IMG/VR virus record: IMGVR_UViG_3300035158_000367
Span: 1 to 30,703 of that record
Strand: one strand, 5' to 3'
Source of the DNA: a virus
Length of the DNA: 30,703 nt
A model generated the notes under the pieces. It saw only the letters and a program-made list of their open reading frames with translations. It was not told where the DNA came from and made no database searches. The position numbers and the translations under genes are program-made. Below are positions 1 to 28,081 of the stretch, in pieces (within the stretch, counting starts at the first letter, position 1; each line of letters begins with the position of its first letter).

Positions 1-69
1 CCAGGCAGTAGCAGAAATAAAAAAGAGTAAGGAAAATACAAGAACCGATAAGCCAAACGCTTTTTTCAT
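1..69 (-). CDS. N-terminus of a secreted or membrane protein (cut by window edge)
   Basis: Reading leftward from an ATG at 69 gives Met-Lys-Lys followed by a hydrophobic stretch (AFGLSVLVFSLLFFISATA), a typical signal peptide or membrane anchor. An in-frame ATG lies 6 nt upstream at 75, but the GGGGG ribosome site (76-80) is correctly spaced only for the ATG at 69. The rest lies outside the window, so function is unknown. It follows array 1 in the leftward operon. Its N-terminus is similar in kind, not demonstrably in origin, to the secreted protein at 7614. Confidence 0.55.
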   Translation of the reverse strand, partial: MKKAFGLSVLVFSLLFFISATAW

Positions 70-113
70 CTTCATCCCCCTTTTGTTGTGGTTTTTGTCA
101 ACCATTTTGCCCA

Positions 114-248
114 TGGATTTCAATATCGTCTTGGCTCGCAAGGGACCACTGGATTTCATCTTAACTTTGGCTCGCACTCATATCTTGGATTTCAGGAAAA
201 ACCTGGCTCGCAAAGCCAGAATGGATTTCAGGCCCTCTGTGGCTTCAA
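114..248 (-). repeat. TIGR-type array 1
   Basis: On the + strand TGGATTTCA occurs at 114, 150, 186 and 222, alternating with TGGCTCGCA at 132, 168 and 204; a decayed copy TGGCTTCAA is at 240. Every spacer is exactly 9 nt and all differ: atatcgtct, agggaccac, tcttaactt, ctcatatct, ggaaaaacc, aagccagaa, ggccctctg. In the leftward transcript the unit reads UGAAAUCCA-N9-UGCGAGCCA-N9 (36 nt). The array starts 7 nt after the stop codon of the 205-aa gene and is sense to that operon. The structure matches tandem interspaced guide RNA arrays. Confidence 0.9.
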
Positions 249-255
249 TGCAATT

Positions 256-873
256 TTACGCCACGTCGCTCTCCGGCGAAATGAGCTTCTTAATTTTCTC
301 TAGCTTGGTCAACTCAGTCTTCTGTTCGATAACCGTCCGTTTCAGTTTTTCATTCTGGTCTCTGAGTTCTTTGATTTCCGTGCGTTGCTCGCGGATAATC
401 TCACGCAAGCGGTCCATTTCGTCCTGAGATAGTGCAGGGGCCTGAATTCTAACTGGTTTGGGTTTGCGGTGCTTCTCTATGATCTCCTCCACCTTTTGTC
501 GCCATTGCACGCCAGACGTTTTGAGCTTGTCAATTTCCTTGATCGCCTTCTCGGGCTTATCGCATACGTCCCAAATCTTGGCAACCAAACCTACGCCATG
601 CTCTTCCACCTTCTTCCTCTGGCGCAATATGGCGTTGCGATATTTGATGTAGGTATGTGGCCTCATGCCGTAGAAGTCCAAAAGGTAATGGTCCCATTGG
701 CTGTTTTTATAGCCTTCGTTTTCTTTGAAGCGCCTGGTCCGGTCAAGATAATAGAGTAATTCCACCATGCGGATCATGGTCGCACGGTTCCTGAGTTGGT
801 TGTTCTTGATCTCCTGTTCGATGTCTACAATACTTCTGCCGTCGTTTTCTTTTTTTAATTTGTCTAGTTTCAT
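256..873 (-). CDS. Coiled-coil protein encoded between two TIGR arrays
   Basis: A 205-aa protein I do not recognise by family. The N-terminal two thirds are mainly helical and charged, with a conserved-looking segment around residues 50-90 rich in aromatics (YKNSQWDHYLLDFYG) and a basic stretch after it; residues 150-198 form a strong Leu/Ile-spaced coiled coil, so it probably oligomerises. The start ATG at 873 has AAAGGA about 7 nt upstream. It lies directly between arrays 1 and 2, downstream of the Nop-like gene in the same leftward operon. An accessory role in the guide-RNA system (array or effector binding) is inference from position only; it could equally be an unrelated early phage protein. 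Confidence 0.75.
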   Translation of the reverse strand: MKLDKLKKENDGRSIVDIEQEIKNNQLRNRATMIRMVELLYYLDRTRRFKENEGYKNSQWDHYLLDFYGMRPHTYIKYRNAILRQRKKVEEHGVGLVAKIWDVCDKPEKAIKEIDKLKTSGVQWRQKVEEIIEKHRKPKPVRIQAPALSQDEMDRLREIIREQRTEIKELRDQNEKLKRTVIEQKTELTKLEKIKKLISPESDVA

Positions 874-900
874 CGGCTAATCCTTTCATTGGGTTATGAG

Positions 901-1163
901 TTAGGCGCATAATGGGGGTGGATTTCAATGGCCCTTATGGCTCGCAGTCATCTGTTGGATTTCAGCCATTCTTTGGCTCGCATTATACAAATGGATTTCA
1001 CGAGACGTGTGGCTCGCAGGTTTCGCCTGGATTTCACCCCATTCTTTGGCTCGCAATCCGTCCTTGGGTTTCAGGCCTTAAATGGCTCGCACTATCCCTT
1101 TGGATTTCAGCCCTCATCTGGCTCGCATCACTTCGCTGGATTTTAATTAACCGCTGGCTCCCA
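901..1163 (-). repeat. TIGR-type array 2 (largest; overlaps tas 3' end)
   Basis: TGGATTTCA (+ strand) at 919, 956, 992, 1028, 1065 (TGGGTTTCA), 1101 and 1137 (TGGATTTTA) alternates with TGGCTCGCA at 938, 974, 1010, 1047, 1083, 1119 and 1155 (TGGCTCCCA); a decayed copy TTAGGCGCA sits at 901. Spacers are 9 nt except two of 10 nt (928-937 and 1037-1046). All differ, though gccattctt (965) and ccccattctt (1037) share eight bases. It fills the gap between tas and the coiled-coil gene. The first two repeats in the transcribed direction lie in the last codons and the stop codon of tas. Confidence 0.93.
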
Positions 1164-1937
1164 AAAATACGGTTTTATCACATCATGCCCCAGGAGCTTC
1201 CCAGCATAGGGTTCTGTAACTTCTAGCTCCTCCAACTCCCTGGCCACCGCCCAGAAATGGGCCAAAAATAATTTTGCTGTCTCATGCCGGGCCATATTAC
1301 GGCGATGCATCGGCGTCGCATTAGGATGAGTTCTCAGCCTTTTCGCCTTGGCCTGATTATAGAAAAGCTTATAGGGATGAGCGTTGTTCTTCTTTTCAAA
1401 TTGCTCGCCTATGTGGTAAGCGATAGCCCGGCCCCTTCTGCCACCCCTGGATTCACCTTTATGCGCCCTGGCCTTCTTGCCATCTTCTACATGCATACCC
1501 ATGTAATGCCACCAGGCTGATATTTTAGGGAAATTCTTGCGCTCTATTCTGGCAAGTAGAATACCCTCACCCTTCGCTTTCTGACTGCAAGCCGGGCAAG
1601 TGAAGTCATCGTCCAGATCGACGCCGCATTTCTTACAGATAGGGATGAACCGAAAATAATATTCTTTGATAAGCGCTGCGGCTATCCAGGGCCCCACGCC
1701 GAACTTTTTATTGAGCCATTTTTCCCAGATTGGGAAAACCCTAAGTAGCCCTTCCATTTCCCGTGAAGTCGTTCCCTTAAGGCTCTCTAGTGCTTTGGCA
1801 ATGTCGTCATACTTTGCTGGACGTTCAGGCTTAAGATGGGCCAAGCGGTTCTTGGTTGAGGTGAGCATCTTGTTAAGGCTGTCATAGGTTTTCATCAAAA
1901 AATTCAAATACTCGACAGTTGTGTCGTCTATTTGCAT
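1143..1937 (-). CDS. tas: TIGR-associated Nop/IS110-like protein (TasA-type, nuclease-free)
   Basis: A 264-aa protein. Residues 79-93 (FGVGPWIAAALIKEY) match the helix-hairpin segment of IS110 transposase C-terminal domains and Nop-like folds. Residues 136-232 follow the order of that family: a hydrophobic 'KISAWWHYMGMH' strand, a Gly/Arg/Lys-rich segment 155-171, then helices with HRRNMARHETAK. Between them is an inserted zinc ribbon (C101, C104, C114, C117). The DEDD/RuvC half of an IS110 transposase is absent, and no HNH or RuvC domain is fused, so it would bind guide RNA and DNA without cutting. AAGGAG at 1944-1949 fixes the ATG at 1937. Arrays lie on both sides; the last codons (W259-E260-P261) are a degenerate array repeat. 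Family from known TIGR-Tas biology; assignment rests on motif reading, not a search. Confidence 0.8.
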   Translation of the reverse strand: MQIDDTTVEYLNFLMKTYDSLNKMLTSTKNRLAHLKPERPAKYDDIAKALESLKGTTSREMEGLLRVFPIWEKWLNKKFGVGPWIAAALIKEYYFRFIPICKKCGVDLDDDFTCPACSQKAKGEGILLARIERKNFPKISAWWHYMGMHVEDGKKARAHKGESRGGRRGRAIAYHIGEQFEKKNNAHPYKLFYNQAKAKRLRTHPNATPMHRRNMARHETAKLFLAHFWAVARELEELEVTEPYAGKLLGHDVIKPYFWEPAVN

Positions 1938-1963
1938 ATCTTACTCCTTCCGCATAAAGGTTT

Positions 1964-2115
1964 TGGGGTTCATTCTTCGTTTGGCTCGCAATAACCATTT
2001 GGATTTCAAACCTCTTTTGGCTCGCATTAGAATAATGGGTTTCAACGTGGCTCTGGCTCGCATTAACGGTATGGGTTTCAACCATTGCCTGGCTCGCACA
2101 GCAGGCCTGAGTTCA
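1964..2115 (-). repeat. TIGR-type array 3 (upstream of tas)
   Basis: TGGCTCGCA (+ strand) at 1982, 2018, 2054 and 2090 alternates with TGGATTTCA or its variant at 1964 (TGGGGTTCA), 2000, 2036 (TGGGTTTCA), 2072 (TGGGTTTCA) and a decayed end copy near 2108 (TGAGTTCA). Spacers are all 9 nt: ttcttcgtt, ataaccatt, aacctcttt, ttagaataa, acgtggctc, ttaacggta, accattgcc, cagcaggcc. The array starts 17 nt after the VRR-NUC stop and ends just before the tas ribosome site, so it forms the tas 5' leader. Two of the four full TGGATTTCA-type copies carry the same A-to-G change, suggesting local duplication. Confidence 0.9.
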
Positions 2116-2132
2116 TCTGTCTTTCGGTTCCA

Positions 2133-2453
2133 TCACACCAACACCTTCAGGTTAAGGGTTTCAATTACGGTCTCTATATCATCCGCTATAAAAGCGGTTA
2201 ATCCCCTCGCACGCATCTCGTCAATAAACCGTATTTGCTCGGGGTATGTTTTAGACCGTGGACCTTTGAGTTCAATAAAAGCCACCTGTCCGGGTATCTG
2301 GCTGGCCATGGTTTTCTGCGGCATATCTATGGCTATCAGGTCGGTAACACCTTTATGCGCTGAGAACTGGCCAGGGGTATGGGTACGGATCACATACCAC
2401 CCGCAGGCTTGCAGTAAGTCAACCACAGCTTTCGTCAGTTGTTTTTCATTCAT
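2133..2453 (-). CDS. VRR-NUC domain nuclease
   Basis: A 106-aa stand-alone VRR-NUC (PD-(D/E)XK superfamily) endonuclease. Visible motifs are GVTDLIAI (catalytic D38), then VAFIELKG (E61, K63) and the following Gln (Q73), in the order and spacing of the family; length is normal for single-domain phage versions. Such proteins act on DNA structures in phage replication or recombination. No strong ribosome site precedes the ATG at 2453; a GC-rich hairpin (2466-2495) lies directly upstream. It is the gene just before array 3 and tas in the operon, so it could supply nuclease activity to a nuclease-free Tas protein, but that is inference. Its first 17 codons are duplicated at 4582-4632. Confidence 0.85.
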   Translation of the reverse strand: MNEKQLTKAVVDLLQACGWYVIRTHTPGQFSAHKGVTDLIAIDMPQKTMASQIPGQVAFIELKGPRSKTYPEQIRFIDEMRARGLTAFIADDIETVIETLNLKVLV

Positions 2454-2499
2454 TGGCTTTAATCAGCCGGCCTCACCCGGCTTTATTGGCCGGCCTCCC
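2404..2499. repeat. 96-bp direct repeat, copy 1 (copy 2 at 4583-4678)
   Basis: Positions 2404-2499 are identical to 4583-4678. The segment covers the start of the VRR-NUC gene and the GC-rich inverted repeat GCCGGCC/GGCCGGC in front of it. See the chimeric duplication at 4537-4678. Confidence 0.95.
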
Positions 2500-2546
2500 C
2501 TCCAATTTCTCTGTTTGCAACTAAGTGGCACCCGCAGACAGGCGGG

Positions 2547-2705
2547 CTATTCGCCTTGGTTTGGTTTGTGCCGGGACTCATACCGTATAAACACTTTGCC
2601 TTTGCAATCAGGACAACACTGGTTTAGAAACTTGTAATGCCAGCCGGCTTTGCAATTCCCACAAAATAAATATTTATTAATCTCAAAGTTATTTCCAGGT
2701 GGCAC
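2547..2705 (-). CDS. Small zinc-ribbon protein, shortened paralog of the 4642-4878 gene
   Basis: A 52-aa product starting at a GTG (2705) after AAGGGGAG. It contains a FCGNC pair and a CCPDCKGK pair, an intact four-Cys zinc ribbon. The arrangement YLFCGNCKAGW...CPDC closely parallels YSFCAQCGSGW...CPDC of the gene at 4642-4878, so the two are paralogs. This copy stops at 2547 (TAG); the C-terminal tail present in the paralog (GGRPIKPGEAG) is still readable downstream at about 2464-2497 but is out of the product. A CCCGC/GCGGG hairpin follows the stop. Upstream the frame stays open through a TTC microsatellite (2755-2772) without a usable start codon. Function unknown. Confidence 0.5.
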   Translation of the reverse strand: MPPGNNFEINKYLFCGNCKAGWHYKFLNQCCPDCKGKVFIRYESRHKPNQGE

Positions 2706-2790
2706 GGTTGATGCACTCCCCTTACTTAAATTTGTACTACTTATGTATATATAAGAAGAAGAAGAAGAAGATACATACGTTATTTTCGCG

Positions 2791-3147
2791 TTACTTTTTT
2801 TGCTTGGCCCTATGCCTAGCCTGCCGCATGGCCGTTTGTTTTCTGGCTTTATCCTCCCTCATCATTCTTCTGTTTCCAACCGTTACTATTCCGTTACTAG
2901 TAACGCAAATGTCACAAAACTTATATCGCTCCGCCTCGGCTAAAAACTGGTCAAATTCCTGCTCCGAAGCCCCTGTCATTTTTGCCAACATTTTTTTTTC
3001 ACCGGTGACGCAACCTCGCGTTGGCGATTCCCAGCAGTAACAGAGAAGGTCAATCCATATTCCCTTGGCCGTGGGGCTCACCATTCTGAGCTGCGGGTCC
3101 GCAAGCCAATCTCGAACGTAGAATTGAAACGCTGGGGCCTTAGCCAC
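2791..3147 (-). CDS. DUF1376/YdaU-like phage replication-region protein
   Basis: A 118-aa protein whose N-terminus (FYVRDWLADPQLRMVSPTAKG then WIDLLCY) resembles the DUF1376/YdaU family, found in phage replication modules as N-terminal domains of replisome organisers. The usual C-terminal domain is missing; the protein ends in a basic tail (RQARHRAKQKK), so it is a short form. Start is GTG at 3147, preceded by GGGGGT and only 3 nt after the stop of the previous gene. A DNA-binding role in replication is inferred from family and basic charge. A run of eight T (2993-3000, + strand) encodes lysines and is a possible sequencing or slippage spot. Confidence 0.65.
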   Translation of the reverse strand: MAKAPAFQFYVRDWLADPQLRMVSPTAKGIWIDLLCYCWESPTRGCVTGEKKMLAKMTGASEQEFDQFLAEAERYKFCDICVTSNGIVTVGNRRMMREDKARKQTAMRQARHRAKQKK

Positions 3148-3150
3148 ATC

Positions 3151-3372
3151 TTACCCCCACACTTTAGTCACTCTTCGCCAAATCCCCCACACCTTCGCCA
3201 AACGCCTCACAATCCCCCACCACAGGCATTTCAGAGCGTGCCCAATCAATCCAATCCACGAAAAATTCTCACCTGCCGCCCCCTCTGGCTCGTAATACAT
3301 AAGCCGTTCCCGGCTGTCCGGATCTTCAATATTAATCAAGTATCTTATTCTTTCGTGGCGGGATTTTTTCAC
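3151..3372 (-). CDS. Small hypothetical phage protein with amphipathic C-terminus
   Basis: 73 aa if it starts at GTG 3372, which overlaps the previous stop as GTGA and has GGGGG upstream; an ATG at 3411 is possible but lacks a ribosome site. The N-terminus (KKSRHERIRYLINIEDPDS) is basic; residues 30-73 hold aromatic and basic helices rich in Trp (CLWWGIVRRLAKVWGIW), which could be membrane-peripheral. No family recognised. Member of the leftward early operon. Confidence 0.5.
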   Translation of the reverse strand: MKKSRHERIRYLINIEDPDSRERLMYYEPEGAAGENFSWIGLIGHALKCLWWGIVRRLAKVWGIWRRVTKVWG

Positions 3373-3587
3373 CACGGCACCCCCGCCGTGCAAAACGTAT
3401 GGTATTTGCATTCAAATCGTGAGCACACTCGCACAGCTCTTTTGTAACAGTCCTGATACCCTTGGCTTAACTGTTTCCTTCGGACATGGTCGATGCAGCA
3501 TTGCTCACAGACGCCGTGACTCATCCATTCGGTAGGGTCGCCATTGAGCCAGGTGCGTCCACATCGAATACAGCAATATGTAGCCAT
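3369..3587 (-). CDS. Small Cys-rich (zinc-binding) protein
   Basis: A 72-aa protein with a CIRC pair, a CEQCC group and further Cys/His (CSRFECKYHTFC), enough for one or two zinc sites. Start ATG 3587 follows AGGGGGATGA, and the preceding gene's stop lies 2 nt upstream, suggesting coupled translation. Function unknown; similar small zinc proteins are common in phage early regions and may bind host RNA polymerase or nucleic acid, but nothing here shows that. Confidence 0.6.
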   Translation of the reverse strand: MATYCCIRCGRTWLNGDPTEWMSHGVCEQCCIDHVRRKQLSQGYQDCYKRAVRVCSRFECKYHTFCTAGVPW

Positions 3588-3588
3588 T

Positions 3589-3906
3589 TCATCCCCCTGC
3601 CATGAACTCTGTCTCGCTCAGAAGCTCGTCGCTCCATAAATAATGAGTCTCATCGCCGTATTTTTTATAGCAATAGGCACATAGAAAGCGATTCTTGTTC
3701 GGCACCCGGTTATTACAACCGTCCCGAGAACAAATCCGATCGCTCAGGCCAGGGAAAGCATCCAAGCGAGTGCGCCGGCTGAGACAGCTTCTTACGAATG
3801 CAGCGCATGCAGGGCAGTATTTCTGCGCCGGCCCTCCGGGCTTAAATTCGCCTAAACAATTAGGGGATTGCTCATTCCAAATGTCAAAACAGCGACATTT
3901 TCTCAT
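3589..3906 (-). CDS. Cys-rich protein with multiple zinc-knuckle-like pairs
   Basis: 105 aa from ATG 3906, chosen because AGGGA is 6 nt upstream and the ATG overlaps the TGA of the previous gene (TGATG). Cysteine pairs: CRC, then C...YCPAC, then CSRDGC and CAYC, in a pattern consistent with two zinc sites. The central region is basic (CLSRRTRLD). No enzymatic motif recognised. Part of a run of Cys-rich genes (3369-4253). Confidence 0.6.
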   Translation of the reverse strand: MRKCRCFDIWNEQSPNCLGEFKPGGPAQKYCPACAAFVRSCLSRRTRLDAFPGLSDRICSRDGCNNRVPNKNRFLCAYCYKKYGDETHYLWSDELLSETEFMAGG

Positions 3907-4253
3907 CACCATTCCCTGAAAACGCATTCATCTTTCACCTGCCAGTAACTTTTGGGGTCCATTCTCAACCGACAACGGCCCTCGCTGTTAATCCATTGAC
4001 AATCACCACAGGCTTGCACAGCAAGGCCCCCTGGCCGCCAATCTTTTCTGGCTCGGGGTGTCTTGCGTTGTATTTTCTCGCTTGGTACGCCCCAAGGGTT
4101 GTTAGCCAGCGGCCCCTTATGTCCTCGTTTGCTATGAGACATAGCCGCACTTTTGCAAGCCTTGGCACCACAGGTTTTCGCGCGCGGGTTTGTTTTGATT
4201 TCGCCGCAGTATGGGCAGGTTGTTGATTTTTCAAGATTAATAGTCGAGGCCAT
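3906..4253 (-). CDS. Zinc-ribbon protein with C-terminal Cys motif
   Basis: 115 aa from ATG 4253 (an upstream start at 4289 is less likely because it lies inside the previous gene). N-terminal zinc ribbon CPYCGEIK followed by CGAKACK, a basic middle (HSKRGHKG and KIQRKTPRARKD), then a C-terminal CGDCQW...CRL...C group. DNA coding for that C-terminal group (3963-4018) is duplicated exactly at 4537-4592. It overlaps the HTH gene upstream by 17 nt and couples to the next gene by TGATG. Function unknown; the basic charge suggests nucleic-acid binding. Confidence 0.6.
   Translation of the reverse strand: MASTINLEKSTTCPYCGEIKTNPRAKTCGAKACKSAAMSHSKRGHKGPLANNPWGVPSEKIQRKTPRARKDWRPGGLAVQACGDCQWINSEGRCRLRMDPKSYWQVKDECVFREW
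3963..4018. repeat. 56-bp direct repeat, copy 1 (copy 2 at 4537-4592)
   Basis: Identical over 56 bp to 4537-4592; forms the second half of the chimeric duplication described at 4537-4678. Confidence 0.95.
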
Positions 4254-4371
4254 TGCGCAGCCAAGTACGAAATTGTTTGAGCGAAACACCCGCGTACCTG
4301 GCCCCCACAGATGGTTTTACCCAGCCTCTATTCGCTCGAACCGTGATTTCCATCGCCTCTGGCCTGCTCAT
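4237..4371 (-). CDS. Small MerR/excisionase-type HTH protein
   Basis: 44 aa from ATG 4371 (GGCGAGG just upstream, short spacing). The C-terminal part VKPSVGARYAGVSLKQFRTW followed by LRNG has the layout of a MerR/excisionase winged-helix HTH (helix, GVS turn, recognition helix ending in W..NG). It overlaps the RHH gene before it and the zinc-ribbon gene after it. Could be a minimal transcription regulator or an excisionase; no integrase is visible in the window, so the second role is unsupported. Confidence 0.5.
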   Translation of the reverse strand: MSRPEAMEITVRANRGWVKPSVGARYAGVSLKQFRTWLRNGLDY

Positions 4372-4522
4372 AACCTCGCCAATTAACGCCTTGTTCCCGC
4401 AAATAGGTATCGAGGCTTTTGCGAACGATTTGGCCAACAGAAGTAAACTCGCTGTCTGCAAGTACAGTTGCAGCGTCAGCCATTTTTTCTGGTACCCTAA
4501 CGTGTAAGACTTTGGTGCTCAT
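4328..4522 (-). CDS. Ribbon-helix-helix (CopG/Arc-type) DNA-binding protein
   Basis: 64 aa from ATG 4522, with GAGG about 8 nt upstream. Residues 2-45 fit a ribbon-helix-helix fold: a short strand STKVLHVRVP, helix A with MADAATVLADS, the turn and helix B with SVGQIVRKSLDTYLREQG. Proteins of this type bind operators as dimers and autoregulate. Its ATG overlaps the TGA of the chimeric mini-ORF upstream (ATGA). An in-frame TTG at 4549 is a less likely start. Confidence 0.7.
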   Translation of the reverse strand: MSTKVLHVRVPEKMADAATVLADSEFTSVGQIVRKSLDTYLREQGVNWRGYEQARGDGNHGSSE

Positions 4523-4632
4523 AAGCAAAACCTCACTCTCAACCGACAACGGCCCTCGCTGTTAATCCATTGACAATCACCACAGGCTTGCAGTAAGTCA
4601 ACCACAGCTTTCGTCAGTTGTTTTTCATTCAT
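4519..4632 (-). pseudogene. Chimeric 37-codon ORF: VRR-NUC start joined to zinc-ribbon gene end
   Basis: The first 17 codons (MNEKQLTKAVVDLLQAC) are identical to the VRR-NUC gene; the next codons (GDCQWINSEGRCRLR) are identical to the C-terminal part of the 3906-4253 gene, in frame. The stop overlaps the RHH start codon (ATGA). It is probably a recombination by-product without the function of either parent, though it may be translated and couple to the RHH gene. Confidence 0.65.
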
Positions 4633-4678
4633 TGGCTTTAATCAGCCGGCCTCACCCGGCTTTATTGGCCGGCCTCCC
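4537..4678. repeat. Chimeric duplicated segment
   Basis: 4537-4592 equals 3963-4018 and 4583-4678 equals 2404-2499. The two donor copies overlap in the ten bases caggcttgca (4583-4592), which occur in both donors and mark the crossover. The 96-bp part contains the inverted repeat GCCGGCC/GGCCGGC. Either template switching or recombination at microhomology in the phage, or an assembly artefact. Confidence 0.9.
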
Positions 4679-4878
4679 TTCTTGCTAGGTCTACGGTTGT
4701 CCATACGTGATGCTTCATTTAGCTTAGAGTTTAAGGTTGTGGTTTGTGCCGGGGTCATTGTGAACTTATAAAAAACAATACTGCCACAATCAGGGCAGTA
4801 GGAACCGAGATATCTGATTGTCCAACCTGAACCACATTGAGCGCAGAAGGAATATTGGTCTATACTGTCTTTTCGCAT
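4642..4878 (-). CDS. Zinc-ribbon protein (full-length paralog)
   Basis: 78 aa from ATG 4878, overlapping the end of the replication gene by 19 nt. Residues 9-31 form a four-Cys zinc ribbon (FCAQC ... YCPDCG). A basic tail (RRPSKKGGRPIKPGEAG) follows. The gene at 2547-2705 is its shortened paralog. The last codons lie inside the duplicated 96-bp segment, so the end of this gene and the start of a VRR-NUC gene were copied together. Function unknown; probably nucleic-acid binding. Confidence 0.55.
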   Translation of the reverse strand: MRKDSIDQYSFCAQCGSGWTIRYLGSYCPDCGSIVFYKFTMTPAQTTTLNSKLNEASRMDNRRPSKKGGRPIKPGEAG

Positions 4879-5648
4879 ATCGGACAAGGTTTGCCTTTCT
4901 TTACTGTATTTGCTTGGTAGCCACACGCACCACATTGAGTGAAGTTATAACGTGAATCGCTTTTAACATTAAGCCAATCCTGAAAATGGTCGTCCGGACC
5001 GTAAAAAGTCTTTCCGTGTTTTATGTACCTGTCCTCTTTGCCTTTGCAGTCATTGGCATAGTTTATTGTGGCTGCAAGCAGCTGCTCTTTAGTGACACCG
5101 TTTTTCAGTCGTGCCTTGTAGGCCTTGTAAGCTGCTTTTTTACCTAATTTTCTAGGGTAATAAGACCAGCAATTTTCAAAATGCTCTGGGTAGGCTTTGG
5201 TACATTTCTTTTGTATATTGTTTTTATTTCTTTTGTAGGCACCATTATTGGTGACACTTTTGACACCATTATTGGGGACACTTTGTACCTTTTTTGGGGA
5301 CACCTTTGGTGCTGTCACCTTTTTTGGGGACACCTGCCATTTTTCGTAATCCTTTTGAATACCATAAAAAATAGCCTCGGTGTCACCTTTATTGGTGACA
5401 GTCTTTAAAATTATGTTTTTGGCAACTAAACTGTTTAAAAGTGCGGGTATTTTGCGCCTATCAATGCCAGTGGCTTCTGAGAATTGACTCAATGCGATCA
5501 TGTCCTTTTTCTTCTTGAAACCATAGGTTTTTCGAATAATGAACCATAAGACCTGCCACTCCTGCCCGGCAAGCCGGTAAGAGCACAGGTGTTCAACAAT
5601 CTCATTCGCAATCTTGGTGTAACCGTTTTCGCATTGGGGATTTGCCAT
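4860..5648 (-). CDS. Lambda O-like replication initiator
   Basis: A 262-aa protein. Residues 8-105 resemble the phage replication protein O N-terminal domain (winged helix): NGYTKIANEIVEHLCSYRL, then VLWFIIRKTYGFKKKKD, then FSEATGIDRRKI. A low-complexity linker (about 105-145) with repeats VSPKKV and VxxxNNG is encoded by iteron-like DNA. The C-terminal part has the helical domain expected to contact a helicase or loader, and ends in a zinc ribbon (CGACG ... CPIC). In lambda the origin lies inside O and the N-terminal domain binds it; the same layout is seen here. The ATG at 5648 lies just after the preceding stop with a poor ribosome site, so translation is probably coupled. Confidence 0.8.
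   Translation of the reverse strand: MANPQCENGYTKIANEIVEHLCSYRLAGQEWQVLWFIIRKTYGFKKKKDMIALSQFSEATGIDRRKIPALLNSLVAKNIILKTVTNKGDTEAIFYGIQKDYEKWQVSPKKVTAPKVSPKKVQSVPNNGVKSVTNNGAYKRNKNNIQKKCTKAYPEHFENCWSYYPRKLGKKAAYKAYKARLKNGVTKEQLLAATINYANDCKGKEDRYIKHGKTFYGPDDHFQDWLNVKSDSRYNFTQCGACGYQANTVKKGKPCPICEKTV
5244..5401. repeat. Iteron-like repeats, candidate replication origin inside the O-like gene
   Basis: Five related copies on the + strand: ATTATTGGTGACAC (5244), ATTATTGGGGACAC (5268), TTTTTGGGGACACC (5291), TTTTTGGGGACACC (5321), and TTTATTGGTGACAG (5388). The last also forms an inverted repeat, TGTCACC (5381-5387) with GGTGACA (5394-5400). Spacing is 24-67 nt. Position inside the middle of an O-like gene is as in lambdoid origins. 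Confidence 0.65.
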
Positions 5649-5649
5649 T

Positions 5650-6048
5650 TCATTCTAATATTTCTAATTTTTCAAAGTGGATCCTGAGGCATTGTCCAAT
5701 GGCTGGAAAAATCAATCTTGTTGGTACTCCAACACTCACGGTAGTCCAACAATAACTACCATTTCTGTTTGGCGCTTCAATTTTGGCTTTAGGTAATTTG
5801 GGGTATTTCTTGATTTGCTCTATTGTCATGGTAGGATACTGACCTTCGATTTCACGGCGGTCTGGACTTTCAGCAAAATCGTATTGCCAGGGTGGGTCTG
5901 CATAGACTACAACATAATCGCCATGTAGTGATTCCGAAGACTTATCCCCAGAAGTTACACTTGTGGCAATACGGCGGTCATCCACCTTGGCTGCTGTAAA
6001 CTGCCGGTCTGAAACCTCGTAAACTAAATGGACGGTTGTTTTGCTCAT
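5650..6048 (-). CDS. Truncated MT-A70-type adenine methyltransferase
   Basis: 132 aa from ATG 6048 (AAGGAG properly spaced). Residues around 45-85 carry the catalytic DPPW motif (VVYADPPWQYDF) and the following QYPTMTIEQIKKYP, diagnostic for MT-A70-like N6-adenine methylases. Family members are usually 170-250 aa; here recognisable homology fades after 'SYCWTT' and the product ends soon after, so the C-terminal half of the Rossmann fold appears lost. Other frames of 5650-5780 do not restore it as far as I can read. The TnpB relic lies just upstream, so an insertion/deletion event may have damaged this region. Activity is doubtful. Confidence 0.7.
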   Translation of the reverse strand: MSKTTVHLVYEVSDRQFTAAKVDDRRIATSVTSGDKSSESLHGDYVVVYADPPWQYDFAESPDRREIEGQYPTMTIEQIKKYPKLPKAKIEAPNRNGSYCWTTVSVGVPTRLIFPAIGQCLRIHFEKLEILE

Positions 6049-6091
6049 AGCCACTCCTTTTAAAAGAGTTATTACCGTTCTCCGATACCTA

Positions 6092-6357
6092 CTAAAATCT
6101 ACTATGAGATTTCATGCTCGGTTCCTGCTTCGTCGAAGCCGCCAACGATACTATCGCCGGTCTTACATCTTCTCCACAGGCGTTCGCTTGCGCGTAGCAA
6201 GCTTGTTCCCGCCGAACTGACGGTACAGCTAAACTCTTTAGATTCAGCGCCGCATTCAAATCTCGATCTAACACTGCTCCACAATCACAAGTCCAAGTTC
6301 TATCTGACCGTTTAAGTGCTGAGTTGATACATCCACAATGCCTGCATAGACGACCTT
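6092..6357 (-). pseudogene. TnpB C-terminal remnant (IS200/IS605 family)
   Basis: Without any start codon, the minus frame from 6357 reads a TnpB zinc ribbon (CRHCGCINSALKRSDRTW then CDCG) followed by the RuvC-III motif DRDLNAALNL and a typical TnpB tail (ACGEDVRPA ... TKQEP). Only about 88 codons remain; the rest of the gene, including the other catalytic acids, is missing, and the fragment begins right after the Cro-like stop codon. It is the relic of an insertion sequence carrying an RNA-guided nuclease. The element's right end and a possible guide-RNA region would be expected just downstream (about 6050-6110), but I see no certain terminus. Confidence 0.85.
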
Positions 6358-6555
6358 CTAGGCTGCCTGGTTAGGATAAAGCAGTTCCTCTCTCTGGACC
6401 GCTCCATCAGACCATTTCTCTATTTTCTCTGCTAATTCAGGGGAGGCTCTATCGCCCTTAATAATTTGATAAACCCGCTGCCTTGTCACACCAAGCTCAG
6501 ATGCAGCCTTTATGACGCTTTTACCAGCCAGTTTGAGATAGGATTCTAGTCGCAT
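6358..6555 (-). CDS. Cro/YdaS-like HTH repressor
   Basis: A 65-aa protein with a helix-turn-helix covering residues 12-40 (SVIKAASELGVTRQRVYQII), then 'KGDRASPELAEKIE', the normal layout of Cro/YdaS-type phage regulators. It is the first gene of the leftward operon, facing a divergent promoter region that contains the inverted repeat CCTA-N10-TAGG (6564-6581), a plausible operator. It would switch between leftward and rightward transcription. Start ATG 6555 with a weak AGGT upstream. Confidence 0.8.
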   Translation of the reverse strand: MRLESYLKLAGKSVIKAASELGVTRQRVYQIIKGDRASPELAEKIEKWSDGAVQREELLYPNQAA

Positions 6556-6562
6556 AAAATGT

Positions 6563-6591
6563 ACCTATCACAGACCGTAGGATATTGTCAA
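6563..6591 (-). promoter_or_regulatory. Leftward promoter and putative operator of the Cro-like gene
   Basis: A perfect -35 box TTGACA (6591 to 6586, minus strand) lies 30 nt before the Cro-like start; the -10 candidate 17 nt on (ATAGGT) is poor. The inverted repeat CCTA-N10-TAGG overlaps this -10 region, consistent with autoregulation. Confidence 0.4.
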
Positions 6592-6655
6592 GAGGGTTTT
6601 TACATACGAAAAACCACCATTTTTAGTTTAATAAAGTCCTGGTGTAAAATAAAGC

Positions 6656-6684
6656 TTGACATAATCTCACCATTAGTTTATCTT
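6656..6684 (+). promoter_or_regulatory. Rightward sigma70-type promoter
   Basis: TTGACA (6656-6661), 17-nt spacer, TATCTT (6679-6684). Start of transcription would be near 6691, which supports translation of the first gene from 6746. It would drive the rightward operon including the pentapeptide gene and array 4, up to the terminator at 7489-7553. Confidence 0.75.
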
Positions 6685-6745
6685 GGCACTTACAATGAAA
6701 TACCTTCTAAACTTATATAGTGCTCCGCTGGCGAGAGGAAACCCC

Positions 6746-6967
6746 ATGACCGAAAAACTAAACATTTTGCTCAACGTAGACAGCACAGACTTCTGCATTG
6801 AGAGTAACATCAATTTTAGAGTGCCATCGCATGAGCTATACGCCCAAGTCTGGCACCACCCCAACGGCCAGCGCTTCGCTAGTTGCCTACACACAGCTTG
6901 GGGAGAGCATGCACTGACCGATGCTGTTCTGTGGCTATCGGAGCATCTGGCACCCCATTTCTCATGA
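6746..6967 (+). CDS. First gene of the rightward operon, hypothetical
   Basis: 73 aa from ATG 6746, preceded by GAGAGGAA at the right spacing; in-frame starts at 6683 and 6695 overlap or precede the predicted transcription start. The sequence (NILLNVDSTDFCIES, then HELYAQVWHHPNGQRF) suggests a small alpha/beta protein without recognised motifs. Position right after the early promoter fits an immediate-early phage protein. Confidence 0.6.
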   Translation: MTEKLNILLNVDSTDFCIESNINFRVPSHELYAQVWHHPNGQRFASCLHTAWGEHALTDAVLWLSEHLAPHFS

Positions 6968-6989
6968 TGGGTGGGCATAGGAGGGCAAC

Positions 6990-7445
6990 ATGAAAATCCT
7001 ACACCGCTACACAAGAGAATGCCTATTTGAGGCTGGGGCCAAAACCGTAAAAGAGTTGATGGAAAAGGCTGTTGACAAAAAAGCCGACCTGGGCGAAGCC
7101 GACCTGGGCGGAGCCGACCTGGGCGGAGCCGACCTGCGCAGAGCCTACCTGACATGGGCCTACCTGACAGAGGCCAACCTGACAGAGGCCAACCTGACAG
7201 AGGCCAACCTGACAGAGGCCAACCTGACAGGGGCCGACCTGAGAGGGGCCGACCTGAGAGGGGCCGACCTGACAGGGGCCGACCACGAACTCAGACTCAT
7301 CAAATCATGGCACGCCAAATCCCCCAACATAAAAGATCTAATGAAATCCAAGGCCAGGGTGCGAGCCAAAGGAGGAATGAAATCCAAGAATTGCCTGCGA
7401 GCCAGAAAAAGCCTGAAATCCATAATTCGGCTGCGAGCCAAGTGA
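6990..7445 (+). CDS. Pentapeptide-repeat protein whose C-terminus is read from a TIGR array
   Basis: 151 aa, ATG 6990 after GGAGG. Residues 31-99 contain about 14 pentapeptide repeats of the A(D/N)LxG type ([20 protein letters not shown]), which fold as a right-handed quadrilateral beta-helix; such proteins can mimic DNA and protect gyrase, but the role here is unknown. From residue 118 on ([21 protein letters not shown]) the codons are array 4 repeats read in frame: TGAAATCCA gives M-K-S and TGCGAGCCA gives V/L-R-A. The stop lies in an array spacer (7443-7445). The basic tail is thus a by-product of, or selected with, the guide array. Confidence 0.75.
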
Positions 7446-7476
7446 TGTTTGAAATCCAGATTGGGAATGCGAGCCA
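7342..7476 (+). repeat. TIGR-type array 4 (+ strand)
   Basis: TGAAATCCA at 7342, 7378, 7414, 7450 alternates with TGCGAGCCA at 7360, 7396, 7432, 7468, all eight copies perfect and all seven spacers 9 nt: aggccaggg, aaggaggaa, agaattgcc, gaaaaagcc, taattcggc, agtgatgtt, gattgggaa. Orientation is opposite to arrays 1-3 on the DNA but identical relative to transcription, because this operon runs rightward. It overlaps the end of the pentapeptide gene and is followed 12 nt later by a strong terminator. Confidence 0.93.
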
Positions 7477-7488
7477 TATGAACGGTTG

Positions 7489-7553
7489 GTCCGGCCTGCT
7501 CCGTCTCCCCATACCCTTGGGCGTGCCTCGGGATGGAGCGGGCCGGACTTTTT
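7489..7553 (+). terminator. Rho-independent terminator after array 4
   Basis: Arms GTCCGGCC-T-GCTCC (7489-7502) and GGAGC-G-GGCCGGAC (7535-7548) form a stem of about 13 bp with one mismatch, a 32-nt loop that may fold further, and then TTTTT (7549-7553). It ends the early transcript carrying the pentapeptide gene and array 4. Confidence 0.85.
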
Positions 7554-7613
7554 AGCGGATCGGGCCCCCGAATGAAGGGCCAAAACCACAAAACAAGGAG
7601 GAAGGAGGATAGC

Positions 7614-8195
7614 ATGAAAACAAAAAAACTAACAGTCATCCTCATGTTAGTAATCCTCACATACGCATCAACAAATGTTTTTGCAGAGGAGTATTCTTTC
7701 AGAAAGACAAAATGGGGAATGTCAAAACAACAAGTGCTTGCGTCTGAAACTTTGAAGCCTGCTCAGGAGAAACCAAATTTACTAATTTACAAAACAAGAC
7801 TACTGGAAAATAACTACTACATTATCTATATATTCGTTGATGACAAACTAGTGCGCTCTAAATATATGCTGCATGAAAGACACTCAAATAAAAATTCCTA
7901 TATTGATGATTATAATTCACTTAACGCTGCTTTGACCAACAAATATGGTGAACCGCTAGAAAAGGATACTCTATGGCTTAACGACTTATACAAAGATGAC
8001 CGTGCTAATTGGGGTATGGCAATAAGTATAGGACATTGTGTATATTTTACAAAATGGGAAACTAACGAAAGCACTATTTTTCAATGTCTCAGTGGCGATA
8101 ATTACAAGATGGAATGTGGAGTCCAATATAGTAGTAAACAGTTAAAGCATTTAGAGAAAAAGCAAAAGGAACAGCAAACTAAGGACGCATTGTAA
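7614..8195 (+). CDS. Secreted hypothetical protein
   Basis: 193 aa from ATG 7614, chosen because AAGGAGG lies at 7602-7608; an upstream start at 7533 would run through the terminator. Residues 1-25 are a signal peptide (MKTKKLTVILMLVILTYAS ... VFA, cleavage before EE). The mature part begins FRKTKWGMSKQQVL, a WGM-S-xx-V motif seen in several exported proteins of unknown function, and ends in a Lys/Glu-rich helix. The gene is clearly more AT-rich than its neighbours, a sign of acquisition from another source. A lysogenic-conversion or superinfection role is possible but unsupported. Confidence 0.7.
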   Translation: MKTKKLTVILMLVILTYASTNVFAEEYSFRKTKWGMSKQQVLASETLKPAQEKPNLLIYKTRLLENNYYIIYIFVDDKLVRSKYMLHERHSNKNSYIDDYNSLNAALTNKYGEPLEKDTLWLNDLYKDDRANWGMAISIGHCVYFTKWETNESTIFQCLSGDNYKMECGVQYSSKQLKHLEKKQKEQQTKDAL

Positions 8196-8285
8196 AGAGC
8201 TAAAGGGGCTGAAAGGAAGCCAAGAAGCAGCTACGGTTTTCCAAAGGGCAACACGCCCGCGCAGACCCAACCCTTAACCCACTGA

Positions 8286-8303
8286 GCCCCGCTACGGCGG
8301 GGC
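8286..8303 (+). other. Stable hairpin with UACG tetraloop
   Basis: GCCCCGC-TACG-GCGGGGC: a perfect 7-bp GC stem closed by a C(UACG)G loop, of the extra-stable UNCG class. No U-run follows, so it is not a standard terminator; it lies 20 nt before the next gene's start and could protect or punctuate mRNA. Confidence 0.6.
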
Positions 8304-8323
8304 CAACCCACAAGGAGGTTGCC

Positions 8324-8500
8324 ATGACCGAAGGATTTTACATCCGACCCCAAAGCACGGCAATCCTGGAGCTCATCCGGCAACGTGAACGATTGAATTT
8401 CATTCTCATGACCGAGGCTGATCTATGGGAAACAAGCAAGCGTGCCCTGAGAGATTCAATTGAGGCGCTGGATAGGTTGATAGGAGACCAAGATGAGTGA
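8324..8500 (+). CDS. Small helical hypothetical protein
   Basis: 58 aa, ATG 8324 with a strong AAGGAGG. Largely helical and charged (LELIRQRERLNF, then ETSKRALRDSIEALDRL), consistent with a small coiled-coil phage protein. Its end overlaps the next gene (ATGAGTGA), so the two are probably translationally coupled. No family recognised. Confidence 0.65.
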   Translation: MTEGFYIRPQSTAILELIRQRERLNFILMTEADLWETSKRALRDSIEALDRLIGDQDE

Positions 8501-8870
8501 GGAAAGATTATTTTTGATTCTTGAAGTCGTCAAGGATTACGAAATTTACCATAATGATGCCCGCACAATCCGCGTCTTCCCCTGCGGCTCTCATCCATTG
8601 GACGAGCCAATTGTGGTGAAGCCGGAGCGCATCATTCCTGAAAGCCAACTAGGCTACAAAGCCCCCAATTGTGGTATGACATGCTTTGAGCCTGCTTATG
8701 GCGGATGGGTAGAGTTTTTAGATTCGCCTTTTACTCGACTTGTTCGGGAACCCGAACCCAAATCCCCCTTCGACAAACTCATTGACGAATGCCCCTTGGA
8801 TAACTGGCAACCTGAAACCCGCAGAAAACTTGCGGAATGGATAAGAAAGATCGCGGAGTGTGAGGAATGA
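8493..8870 (+). CDS. Hypothetical protein
   Basis: 125 aa, starting within the last codons of the preceding gene. The N-terminal half contains YEIYHNDARTIRVFPCGS and predicted beta strands ending at 'GWVEFLDSPFTRLV'; the C-terminal part (FDKLIDECPLDNW ... WIRKIAECEE) is helical. Not recognised. Stop overlaps the next ATG (ATGA). Confidence 0.65.
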   Translation: MSEERLFLILEVVKDYEIYHNDARTIRVFPCGSHPLDEPIVVKPERIIPESQLGYKAPNCGMTCFEPAYGGWVEFLDSPFTRLVREPEPKSPFDKLIDECPLDNWQPETRRKLAEWIRKIAECEE

Positions 8871-8980
8871 CCATCACCCAACAAGAATTCGACCTGATCG
8901 TAGCACATTTAATCATGAGGTGCTGGACGCTGCGCTTCGCGGCTGAAGGTATTTATTATGCACAGAAAGCGAGGAATTGA
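8867..8980 (+). CDS. Very small hypothetical protein
   Basis: 37 aa from an ATG overlapping the previous stop (ATGA) and ending 1 nt before the next start. Sequence MTITQQEFDLIVAHLIMRCW then a short tail. Supported only by tight coupling on both sides. Confidence 0.45.
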   Translation: MTITQQEFDLIVAHLIMRCWTLRFAAEGIYYAQKARN

Positions 8981-8981
8981 G

Positions 8982-9188
8982 ATGAAACGCTACTACCCCC
9001 GCCAAGTAGAAACCGGCGAATGGTTTTACCGCGGCAGATATTACGATCACTATCCCTGCGAGGAAGTGGATAGAGATCATAACCTTGAGGAACGAGAAGC
9101 TGAACGAAGATTTGACAGGATGAGAGACGAAGGCGAGATTCACATGGACTCGTGGGATATTCTTGAAGAAATGCATGTGGATCAATGA
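8982..9188 (+). CDS. Small charged hypothetical protein
   Basis: 68 aa from ATG 8982 (GAGG upstream). Contains GEWFYRGRYYDHYPCEE and a long acidic-basic helix. Its TGA overlaps the start of the exonuclease gene (ATGA), so it belongs to the recombination operon. Function unknown. Confidence 0.55.
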   Translation: MKRYYPRQVETGEWFYRGRYYDHYPCEEVDRDHNLEEREAERRFDRMRDEGEIHMDSWDILEEMHVDQ

Positions 9189-9766
9189 AACTTCCCTCCG
9201 TCACCGAAGTCCTCAGCGTGTACCAGGACTTCTCAAATATACCGGAGGCAACGCTTGGTTACGCCACCGAGCGAGGCATTGCCGTCCACAAAACTTGCGC
9301 TGCGCTCGCTGTTGGTTTATGGGCACCAAAACTATGCCCTGAATGGCAAGGCTTTGTTGTTAGTACGCGACACTGGTTCGACCGAATGGTTGAGGAAGTA
9401 ATCCTCGTAGAGACCCAATTGAAAGACGAAAAATTCGGATTCACTGGCACACTTGATTATCTTTTAAGACTCAAAGACAAGCCCGATCTTACCGTGATGG
9501 ATTTGAAAACCCCAGTTCTCCGCTACAAAGTATGGGCTGGCCAGCTTGCGGCCTATCTCCGACTTGCTCAAGTCAATGGTTACGATGCTACGGATGCCTT
9601 GACGTTGCAGCCGGACCCGAAAGGCGGCAGTGCAAAGGCGCATTACCTTGAATATGGCTCTGAGGCGTTAACTGCATTTTTGGCGGCGTTGACAGCTTAC
9701 AGATATTTCAAGCAGAGCTTTGCGAGCCAGGAACACCGTGAAATCCAAAACAGTGCGAAAGCTTAA
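9185..9766 (+). CDS. PD-(D/E)XK exonuclease (RecB/Cas4-like), RecT partner
   Basis: 193 aa. Motifs in order: H35 in ERGIAVHKTC, D91 in GFTGTLDYLL, the D-x-K pair in LTVMDLKTP (D106, K108), and the QLAAYL motif (Q120, Y124), the pattern of RecE/Cas4-like PD-(D/E)XK nucleases. Upstream of a coiled-coil protein and RecT, it should resect double-strand ends for annealing. The last codons (A180-S-Q ... E186-I-Q) are TIGR array 5 in frame, beyond the recognisable nuclease fold, so the natural C-terminus may have been extended or replaced by the array. Confidence 0.8.
   Translation: MKLPSVTEVLSVYQDFSNIPEATLGYATERGIAVHKTCAALAVGLWAPKLCPEWQGFVVSTRHWFDRMVEEVILVETQLKDEKFGFTGTLDYLLRLKDKPDLTVMDLKTPVLRYKVWAGQLAAYLRLAQVNGYDATDALTLQPDPKGGSAKAHYLEYGSEALTAFLAALTAYRYFKQSFASQEHREIQNSAKA
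9721..9747 (+). repeat. TIGR-type minimal array 5
   Basis: One perfect TGCGAGCCA (9721-9729), 9-nt spacer ggaacaccg, one perfect TGAAATCCA (9739-9747). Sense to the + strand operon, like array 4. A partial TGCGA follows at 9755 with a shortened spacer. It lies in the last codons of the exonuclease gene. Two perfect 9-mers at exact 9-nt spacing are very unlikely by chance. Confidence 0.85.
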
Positions 9767-9820
9767 TCCAGATTTGAAGTGGTGAGAGAGGCATTACTAA
9801 AATGTCGAAAGGAGTAGCCC

Positions 9821-10516
9821 ATGAAATTTTCAGAAGCTCTTGAACCAAAACCCAAAAAGAAAACCCCACCTCCAGCCATAGCCAAAGGGCTGGACCTGGA
9901 AGCGGCAAAGAAACGGTTCGCCTACGTCCACCAAGAAATCGACAAGCTGAAAACCGATGCTGAGGTCGCTGTGGTTCAAGACGAATCCGGCCTGAAAGCA
10001 GCTGTGAGCATGACCAAAGCGGTCAAGGAACTGGACAAAAAGATCACAGCACAGCGCAAGGAGACCATAGCCGCAGCGGATAAGTTTGTCCGCACTGTCA
10101 ATACGTTCTGCCGCGATTTTACCAGCAAGCTTCAGACCATTGAAAAAACACTCAAGAAAAAGATAGGCGATTACCAGTACAGACAGGAACTCGCCCGGCG
10201 CGAAGCGGAGCGCAAAGCGCAGGAAGAAGCCAGGAAACTGCAAGAGGACTTGGACAAAGAGGCTGAGAAAAAAGGCGTCGAGAAGGTAGAAGTGACCACA
10301 CCGGTCATGCCCAAGCAAGATCTGGTTGCCAGGACCGAGGACGGCGCCAGTGCCCACATACGCATGGAATGGACGGTGGACGTAATCAACGAAGATGAAG
10401 TGCCGCGTGAATATTGTTCGTCAGATTCTTCCAAGCTCAAAGCGGCAGCAAAGGCAGGTGTACGGGAAATAAGAGGTTGCAAAATATACGAGAAACCTAT
10501 CCCGGTTATAAGATAA
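9821..10516 (+). CDS. DUF1351-like coiled-coil protein of the RecT cassette
   Basis: 231 aa, ATG 9821. After a proline/lysine-rich start, residues 40-165 are a long coiled coil (VKELDKKITAQRKETIAAAD, then EARKLQEDLDKEAEK). The C-terminus has the pattern 'VPREYC' then SKLKAAAKAGVREIRGCKIY, typical of phage coiled-coil proteins of the DUF1351 type found beside recT. Proposed roles include host nuclease inhibition or recombination accessory function; not shown here. Confidence 0.7.
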   Translation: MKFSEALEPKPKKKTPPPAIAKGLDLEAAKKRFAYVHQEIDKLKTDAEVAVVQDESGLKAAVSMTKAVKELDKKITAQRKETIAAADKFVRTVNTFCRDFTSKLQTIEKTLKKKIGDYQYRQELARREAERKAQEEARKLQEDLDKEAEKKGVEKVEVTTPVMPKQDLVARTEDGASAHIRMEWTVDVINEDEVPREYCSSDSSKLKAAAKAGVREIRGCKIYEKPIPVIR

Positions 10517-26875: not shown

Positions 26876-26924
26876 GAAATCCTCCCCTGGTTTAGCCAAA
26901 GAAAAAGGGCGGTTAGACATGGTG

Positions 26925-26940
26925 GGTATGGCACCATACC
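26925..26940 (-). other. Small hairpin upstream of the trifunctional gene
   Basis: GGTATGG-CA-CCATACC, a 7-bp inverted repeat about 50 nt upstream of the chosen start codon. It lies in the 132-nt gap to the next gene (26876-27007), where I see no gene. Possible mRNA structure or operator; no U-run follows. Confidence 0.4.
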
Positions 26941-27007
26941 TGCCGCCCTAAATCTTTTTCGCCCCTTGGCTCGTCAGCCCGAGGCTAGGCTTTTTTGTAA
27001 ATGCTAT

Positions 27008-27664
27008 TTAAACAGTCTCCTGTGAAGAAAACTGTATTTTCCCTTTCCATTTATCAGCCAGATAATCTCTGTCTGGCTTCTGTTTCTCTTCCAGTCCCTC
27101 TTCTTGTTTATCCGGGCTGGTCACCCTGCCCGTCGGCGCCCCGTGCAAAAGCCACACGTGCCCGTTGCAGTAGCACGACCAGCCATTCTCCCAAGCCTGC
27201 CGGCTCAGGTCTATGTCAACGAAGTAAGTCAGATTCTCATCCGCCCTTAAGCCTGCCTTGCGCCTTAGGACATTGCAGAAGCCGAATGTGCTGTGAACAG
27301 GACTTATAGAATCAAGCCACGGTCTGAAGCCGTTGTCGGGAATCGTGCCGTCCTTGGTCTCTATGGGCATCACTATGGCGGCGTCCGGGCGAAGGTACAT
27401 AGTCTCGACCAAGGATCGCAGCCAGAACGGCCTCAAGGCGGCGGTGTCGTCCTCAAGAACACAGATGAAATCCGCGTTCGCCCGTTCCATCAACCTGTTC
27501 CAGTTCTCGGCGTGGCTCACAGGGTCCAGCTGCAGGATGAGATTGTACTTAACTCCAGCCTCGACCCTTATGAGGCTTTGCAGGCAACGCTCCAGCAATT
27601 CGTTCCCTTGCGGTTTGTGGCAGAGTATTCCGACTTCGACACTGAACATCTGGCCCTGGTGCAT
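27008..27664 (-). CDS. GT2-like glycosyltransferase
   Basis: 218 aa. Pattern of GT-A/GT2: VEVGILCHKPQGNELLERCL, then a DxD-like acidic cluster in 'FICVLEDDTAAL' (around residues 66-77), 'PDAAIVMPIETK' and a C-terminal FVDIDLSRQAW. Shorter than classic GT2 but with the nucleotide-sugar core. Adjacent to the trifunctional enzyme and GT75-like gene, so probably the same glycan pathway. Start could be residue 1 or Met at residue 6. Confidence 0.7.
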   Translation of the reverse strand: MHQGQMFSVEVGILCHKPQGNELLERCLQSLIRVEAGVKYNLILQLDPVSHAENWNRLMERANADFICVLEDDTAALRPFWLRSLVETMYLRPDAAIVMPIETKDGTIPDNGFRPWLDSISPVHSTFGFCNVLRRKAGLRADENLTYFVDIDLSRQAWENGWSCYCNGHVWLLHGAPTGRVTSPDKQEEGLEEKQKPDRDYLADKWKGKIQFSSQETV

Positions 27665-27666
27665 GG

Positions 27667-28077: not shown

Positions 28078-28081
28078 AATC

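Follow-up and report, generated by a model that had tools for sequence, protein, structure and literature searches.

The DNA analysed here, called the window below, comprises the 30,703 bases of a virus record. At five places it carries arrays of short alternating repeats, and between the second and third of these lies tasA, the gene of a 264-amino-acid (aa) Tas protein with a Nop domain and without a nuclease domain. The present report concerns these arrays and this protein, which have the anatomy of a TIGR-TasA system, and a link between the two spacers of each array unit. The genome is that of a tailed phage (an earlier note on this DNA, made from the letters alone, had spoken of a phage); genes for a tape measure, a minor tail protein, RecT, an exonuclease and an O-like replication protein were found with Pfam and PHROGs. 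A megablast search of positions 9000-30703 among phage records gave no match.

Arrays and repeats of the window

The features of the locus, including the relevant open reading frames (ORFs), are as follows; lengths are in nucleotides (nt) where not stated otherwise.

103-248, minus strand: array 1, with a degenerate edge TTGAAGCCA (240-248), loops and edges down to 114, a final spacer (105-113) and then TG
256-873, minus strand: 205-aa ORF separating arrays 1 and 2, no weighty family match
906-1163, minus strand: array 2, its first edge TGGGAGCCA (1155-1163) within the coding end of tasA, and a terminal truncated edge TGCG (906-909)
1143-1937, minus strand: tasA, 264 aa, Nop-domain Tas protein without a nuclease domain, between arrays 2 and 3
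1584-1646, minus strand: zinc-ribbon-like insert of tasA (Cys 101, 104, 114 and 117), invariant columns in a 12-sequence clade alignment
1951-2098, minus strand: array 3, four units, with a degenerate loop upstream to 2115 and a terminal truncated edge TGCG (1951-1954)
6656-6684, plus strand: promoter-like site TTGACA-17-TATCTT, upstream of the plus-strand ORFs leading into array 4
6990-7445, plus strand: pentapeptide-repeat ORF (Pfam Pentapeptide, 3.6e-24), its 3' part covering most of array 4
7342-7476, plus strand: array 4, a half unit first, then three full edge-to-edge units, with a full terminal edge
7489-7553, plus strand: terminator-like hairpin and T-run behind array 4 (-46.7 kcal/mol for 7480-7560, z -4.25)
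9185-9766, plus strand: exonuclease ORF, with array 5 inside its 3' end
9721-9757, plus strand: array 5, a single unit of edge, 9-nt spacer and loop, with TGCG after 6 nt (short second spacer)

Both repeats are far more frequent than expected by chance. TGCGAGCCA has 18 exact copies in the window compared to 0.37 expected, all 18 of them within the arrays, and TGAAATCCA has 16 compared to 0.25, of which 15 lie within the arrays and one is isolated at 19377-19385. When up to two mismatches are allowed, the two are found to alternate regularly at all five sites with a step of 18 nt, or 19 nt where the spacer has 10. Spacers have 9 nt, apart from two in array 2 with 10 nt and the short second spacer of array 5, and variants of the repeats, for example TGAAACCCA, occur within the arrays. 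UG and CCA boxes are common to both repeats. TGCGAGCCA is the edge and TGAAATCCA the loop repeat, giving the unit order edge-A-loop-B; the assignment is made because a full edge is the last repeat of array 4, ahead of the terminator-like hairpin, and because the last repeat of arrays 2 and 3 is an edge cut short on its 3' side, TGCG.

The earlier note had described exactly this alternation of two 9-mers with spacers of 9 (rarely 10) nt, and had ascribed it to the TIGR-Tas architecture. The copy numbers bear out the first point, and the second agrees with the definition published in PMC12045711. Its five places also stand, but their limits have been refined; the upper end of array 3 (2108-2115), for example, is a degenerate loop, and array 5 consists of one unit.

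Arrays 1-3 lie on the minus strand and arrays 4-5 on the plus strand, every array being co-directional with the surrounding ORFs. The first three sit between successive minus-strand ORFs: array 1 behind the 205-aa ORF, array 2 with its start overlapping the last codons of tasA, and array 3 upstream of tasA, where its TGCG end abuts GAAGGAG, the ribosome-binding-like site of that gene. Arrays 4 and 5 are at the 3' ends of plus-strand ORFs. A truncated terminal edge or a terminator is present at some, not all, arrays of the window. For the hairpin region behind array 4, one of 200 shuffles was equally low in energy, and a scan for the terminator consensus did not list this hairpin. The promoter-like site is weak evidence alone, since positions 1-10000 contain 18 such sites, compared to a shuffle mean of 11.6 (standard deviation 4.8). 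An Rfam search gave no match at the gathering score.

It is important to consider whether the locus could be a decayed, inactive remnant carried in the phage, as the single unit of array 5 with its short second spacer and the degenerate ends of arrays 1 and 3 might suggest. This is improbable, because the tasA ORF is uninterrupted and has lost none of the residues that are invariant in its clade, and because the edge repeats do not vary in the interior of the arrays and their spacing is maintained.

The Tas protein and the co-occurrence of arrays with it

We now turn to the 264-aa protein, which the earlier note had called Nop/IS110-like and had proposed to check with profile and structure searches. 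These place it in the Tas family with a predicted fold of the expected kind. Among PDB sequences it matches TasR (9mty, 6.5e-16) and TasH (21kl, 3e-7). The AlphaFold2 model, built with 12 sequences, has a predicted local distance difference test score (pLDDT) of 81.5, and its predicted fold aligns with TasR 9mty at Z 20.7 over 200 residues (beginning at TasR residue 110) and with TasH at Z 18 to 19. The modelled similarity to IS110-type recombinases (IS621) is about Z 15, the IS621 alignment extending only from about residue 122 on, and that to Nop5 (1nt2) is weak, with Z 7.5. By sequence and predicted fold, the product is a Tas protein. PHROGs labels it as 'transposase' (phrog_4285, 7.9e-16), and a single-protein scan for its relatives found none.

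The Pfam scan of the protein gave nothing of weight, with no nuclease domain and no DEDD family. Its length, the start of the TasR alignment at TasR residue 110 and the Pfam result together show that there is no HNH or RuvC domain, and the lack of a nuclease half makes the protein of the TasA type. The zinc-ribbon-like insert corresponds to a gap in the remaining rows of the wider Tas alignment, and its four cysteines may bind zinc. The words zinc and ribbon are absent from the main text of PMC12045711. The subtype, the insert and the spacer link described below go beyond the earlier note.

The repeats and the protein occur together in other genomes as well. Virus records found by the repeat alone contain a Tas homologue (phrog_4285 protein) in 35 of 43 cases (14 of 21 plus 21 of 22), while the protein was found in 0 of 14 control genomes. 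Some of the seven misses in the set of 21 may be chance matches or fragments, because the first repeat pattern was short. Genomes and metagenome-assembled genomes bearing the same repeats are labelled Smithella, Planctomycetota, Thermoplasmatota, Euryarchaeota and Methanolliviera. For the converse test, 33 loci were found by alignment of the zinc-ribbon protein; 13 of these belong to records whose arrays had been known before. Short-range repeats are most often 36 nt apart in 32 of the loci and 37 nt apart in the remaining one (L250); the period is weak in L221 and L222, and part of the signal in L223 and L247 comes from coding repeats. Several of the protein-found loci use other boxes (CTA, CGA, ACA). 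The array of Salicola phage CGphi29 named in PMC12045711 was recovered.

A number of these loci deserve mention in their own right. A zinc-ribbon TasA locus (L246, 6891-7270) has an array of TATAAATCA and TTAAAATCA without UG...CCA boxes. In Microcystis phage Mvi-JY20 (L259, 3192-4270), a Tas homologue annotated as hypothetical lies at an unannotated array with a 36-nt period and a terminator-like end. The Tas ORFs of three genomes (G032, L196:17226-18242; G026, L181:97-987; G030, L190:4697-5701) continue into the array, so that the translated repeats appear as ASQ/ETQ-like residues every 12 positions; in a fourth (G001, L063:4773-5789) the same array-derived residues stand at the Tas N-terminus, where the start codon is uncertain. 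Two phage contigs with identical TasR differ in a few spacers (G016, L096:7281-7721; G020, L099:2908-3349) and form a natural pair for a study of spacer change.

The position of the arrays relative to ORFs was also counted. Of the 78 arrays counted in 39 records, 57 begin where a co-directional ORF ends, compared to 22% of random places; the ORF had to have at least 80 aa and its stop within -90 to +60 nt of the first full edge. Ten duplicate or fragmentary sources are left out of this count, and array 5 and lone half units are uncounted; of the window's own arrays, 3 of 4 have this position. Two or more separate arrays are present in 22 of the 39 records.

Repeats that are short, regular and near gene starts and ends could instead be DNA operators or iterons bound by a protein, with no guide RNA at all. 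We regard this as very improbable, less probable even than a decayed remnant, since the protein is a Tas homologue, the array starts favour ORF 3' ends, a terminator-like hairpin lies behind array 4, and the spacers covary within a unit and not between neighbours, as described next.

A link between the two spacers

Let A9 and B9 denote the last bases of spacers A and B in one unit edge-A-loop-B-edge. The first set comprises 556 units, 492 of them distinct; ten genomes with 178 units, here called the G-G class, were set aside after their composition had been seen, which leaves 314. Here A9 and B9 are Watson-Crick partners in 157 units, compared to 94.0 expected, and the largest value in 10,000 within-genome shuffles was 121. 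In the control, which pairs spacer B with spacer A of the following unit, the count is 71 of 223, compared to 67.3.

The second set, from protein-found loci and sharing no unit with the first, gives 87 of 146 compared to 52.2 (largest of 10,000 shuffles 71), with a control of 31 of 113 compared to 38.0. The 13 of 33 loci already included had been dropped, and four of the other 20 (L222, L246, L250, L252) were without distinct pattern units. A third set, from another TasA clade, gives 24 of 49 compared to 15.2 (p 0.003); 2 of 27 loci were dropped as already included, 8 of the remaining 25 gave units, and L287, with another repeat type, was left out. After removal of near-duplicates, the count is 252 of 484 compared to 150.8, and among groups with at least four units the pairing is up in 43 of 48, down in 2 and tied in 3.

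All four Watson-Crick types are enriched, by 1.5-2.1 times, and all twelve others are depleted in the first two sets, G-U included (27 compared to 39.7 in the first set, 41 compared to 57.1 in the two together). A 9 by 9 position scan of 216 TasA units, which leaves out two genomes that are part of the 314 (G010, 0/13; G029, 0/4), gives an excess of 56 for A9-B9 and 15.9 for the next-best pair. With the same two left out, the zinc-ribbon clade has 75 of 131 compared to 39.8, and other TasA 51 of 85 compared to 30.2. A weaker signal is seen for A8-B9 (71 of 216 compared to 55.3; second set, 57 of 146 compared to 46.5). The TasR-type records (G016, G020, G024) show no signal, 7 of 23 compared to 5.9, in a small sample; a scan for more TasR gave three loci, all in records already included. 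As the link holds within a unit only, it fixes the phase of an array from sequence alone. It looks new, although it may be in print elsewhere, since the literature search was without preprints and most subscription papers.

The G-G class (G001, G002, G005, G017, G023, G031, G033, G034, G035, G039) has G at the last base of both spacers in 130 of 178 units. Most of its spacers have G or, more rarely, A as their last base, which would fit a box D of the form RUG and spacers of 8 nt. The class stands in two separate parts of the Tas tree, which was made without G017 (its gene ran past the border of the retrieved DNA) and whose topology was taken without support values.

Concerning the origin of the link, PMC12045711 gives 8-nt 3' overhangs and a cut at the fifth base from box C, the side of the cut being worded two ways. 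With the wording that fits 3' overhangs, this cut position would bring the 3' ends of the two spacers together at the centre of the site, and the complementarity of A9 and B9 would then mean that both spacers read one central base pair (bp) of a 17-bp site. According to the same source, gaps of 1-2 bp are tolerated and larger ones are not.

Our reading, to which we give a probability of about 75%, is therefore that of a TIGR-TasA system whose operon-borne arrays would yield 36-nt guides for a nuclease-free dimer that binds and bends DNA, spacers A and B sharing the central bp of the site. RNA processing and DNA binding are here assumed by analogy with the published TIGR-Tas family. Transcripts of ordinary phage operons would include the arrays, either at the 3' end or between genes, and the transcript would be cut in the edge repeat to give the guide 5' ...GCCA-spacer A-UGAAAUCCA-spacer B-UGC... 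3'. One guide would be held by a TasA dimer, and opposite strands of one continuous DNA site would pair with spacers A and B. The natural site in this TasA lineage would then be A followed by the reverse complement of B with a one-base overlap, and this also provides a search rule for natural targets. Most likely, TasA would bind and bend DNA and thereby keep rival elements or host genes from being transcribed or replicated; such an action is suggested by the lack of a nuclease.

Another option is that the system is the same and the A9-B9 link is an RNA-RNA base pair closing the guide at the crossing point. In the TasR structure of PMC12045711, as we read it, A9 and B9 should be close neighbours in the middle of the complex. 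Each of them stands directly before a UG box, and the signal is prominent at a single position pair. However, G-U pairs are usually tolerated in RNA helices, while here they are as scarce as other mismatches, which speaks for an origin in DNA; about half of the units are unpaired, which is hardly compatible with a structural requirement. We thus consider the RNA-RNA pair unlikely, though well above the remnant and operator explanations.

As to how the link arose, we tentatively suggest, at somewhat less than even odds, that the two spacers of a unit derive from a single uninterrupted 17-bp stretch of double-stranded DNA, copied jointly, A and B from opposite strands and with the middle bp shared. 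If true, this would be an undescribed way for TIGR-TasA phages to capture or copy a target site in one piece, and a sequence search with A plus the reverse complement of B could reveal natural targets. Natural targets, spacer origin and the role of the nuclease-free TasA are listed as open questions in PMC12045711.

Several points weigh against the reading that we prefer. No natural target was found: all target searches are at chance level and covered few possible places. Specifically, 232 unique units gave no exact match in 0.92 megabases (Mb) of collected DNA with four arrangements and four spacings, and 5 one-mismatch matches compared to 12 in the shuffled control. For the 492 first-set units, a search of 1.77 Mb required an exact match of one 8-nt half, allowed at most two mismatches in the second half and took in spacings 0-5 and two orders, and its counts resembled those of three shuffles; two 16/16 matches were at the predicted spacing, with the central base mismatched in both. 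Beyond the collected DNA, where two 17-mers were searched, one from the window gave four matches in IMG/VR (blastn), in contigs without shared flanks and read as chance, and one from a Smithella prophage gave none in 51 genomes of that family. Only about half of the units follow the A9-B9 rule, with about 30% expected by chance, and one genome (G030) has the opposite trend, 1 of 15 compared to 3.7. The exclusion of the G-G class was post hoc; with it included, the first set gives 163 of 492 compared to about 99.4. The window alone has 9 of 16 compared to 4.3 (p about 0.01). Of six cellular genomes with arrays, three have a Tas homologue and three show none. Finally, the NCBIfam family NF052498 (TIGR_Tas_endo) matches the 264-aa protein at 5.1e-25 with 88.7 bits, below its cut-off of 100, which clade members G032 (124.4) and G022 (108.6) pass; the family is named 'endonuclease', yet its model has 215 positions and the match covers the Nop part.

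Other features and comparison with known systems

Elsewhere in the window, the end part of a TnpB/Cas12f-like gene lies at 6092-6355 on the minus strand (Pfam Cas12f1-like_TNB, 3.4e-8), with a YdaS/HTH-like regulator beside it (6358-6555). Direct repeats occur in two pairs, the copies of each pair being 98% identical (2401-2502 and 4580-4681; 3960-4018 and 4534-4592); the second copies meet near 4580-4592, a mosaic duplication. A sugar-modification module near the structural genes (23930-29116 and 29698-30405, minus strand) includes a 996-aa glycosyltransferase-methyltransferase-glycosyltransferase fusion, an RGP-family protein and a radical SAM protein.

Compared to known systems, the RNA-guided recombinases of the IS110/IS621 type have a related fold according to the model, but they contain a DEDD (RuvC-like) half and use one bridge RNA, while the window protein is without DEDD and has guide arrays. 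In the TasH system of CGphi29, the 36-nt period is the same, the repeat AAGCGAGCCA is similar and a terminator-like end lies behind the array (ends read by eye). It differs in its HNH domain and, according to PMC12045711, in its 8-nt spacers, 16 nt in all. The three TasR records share the repeats of the window, and the Nop domain of TasR (9mty) is homologous to the window protein (hhalign 99.9%), but TasR has an N-terminal RuvC domain that the latter does not have.

The TasA subtype of PMC12045711 is the closest match. Alternating edge and loop repeats, UG...CCA boxes, 9-nt spacers, a 36-nt period, a nuclease-free Nop-domain protein beside the arrays, a phage host, a truncated terminal edge and a terminator are common to both, and the window also agrees with the published array ends and the extra pair in the edge. 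The window differs in the zinc-ribbon-like insert (a comparison with the main text) and in having arrays at five places, some inside the 3' ends of ORFs; the zinc-ribbon TasA clade, with its scattered arrays at ORF 3' ends, is a clear object for experiments. Finally, A9 and B9 covary here, whereas according to PMC12045711 the two spacers show no obvious covariation and the site of TasR has 18 bp.

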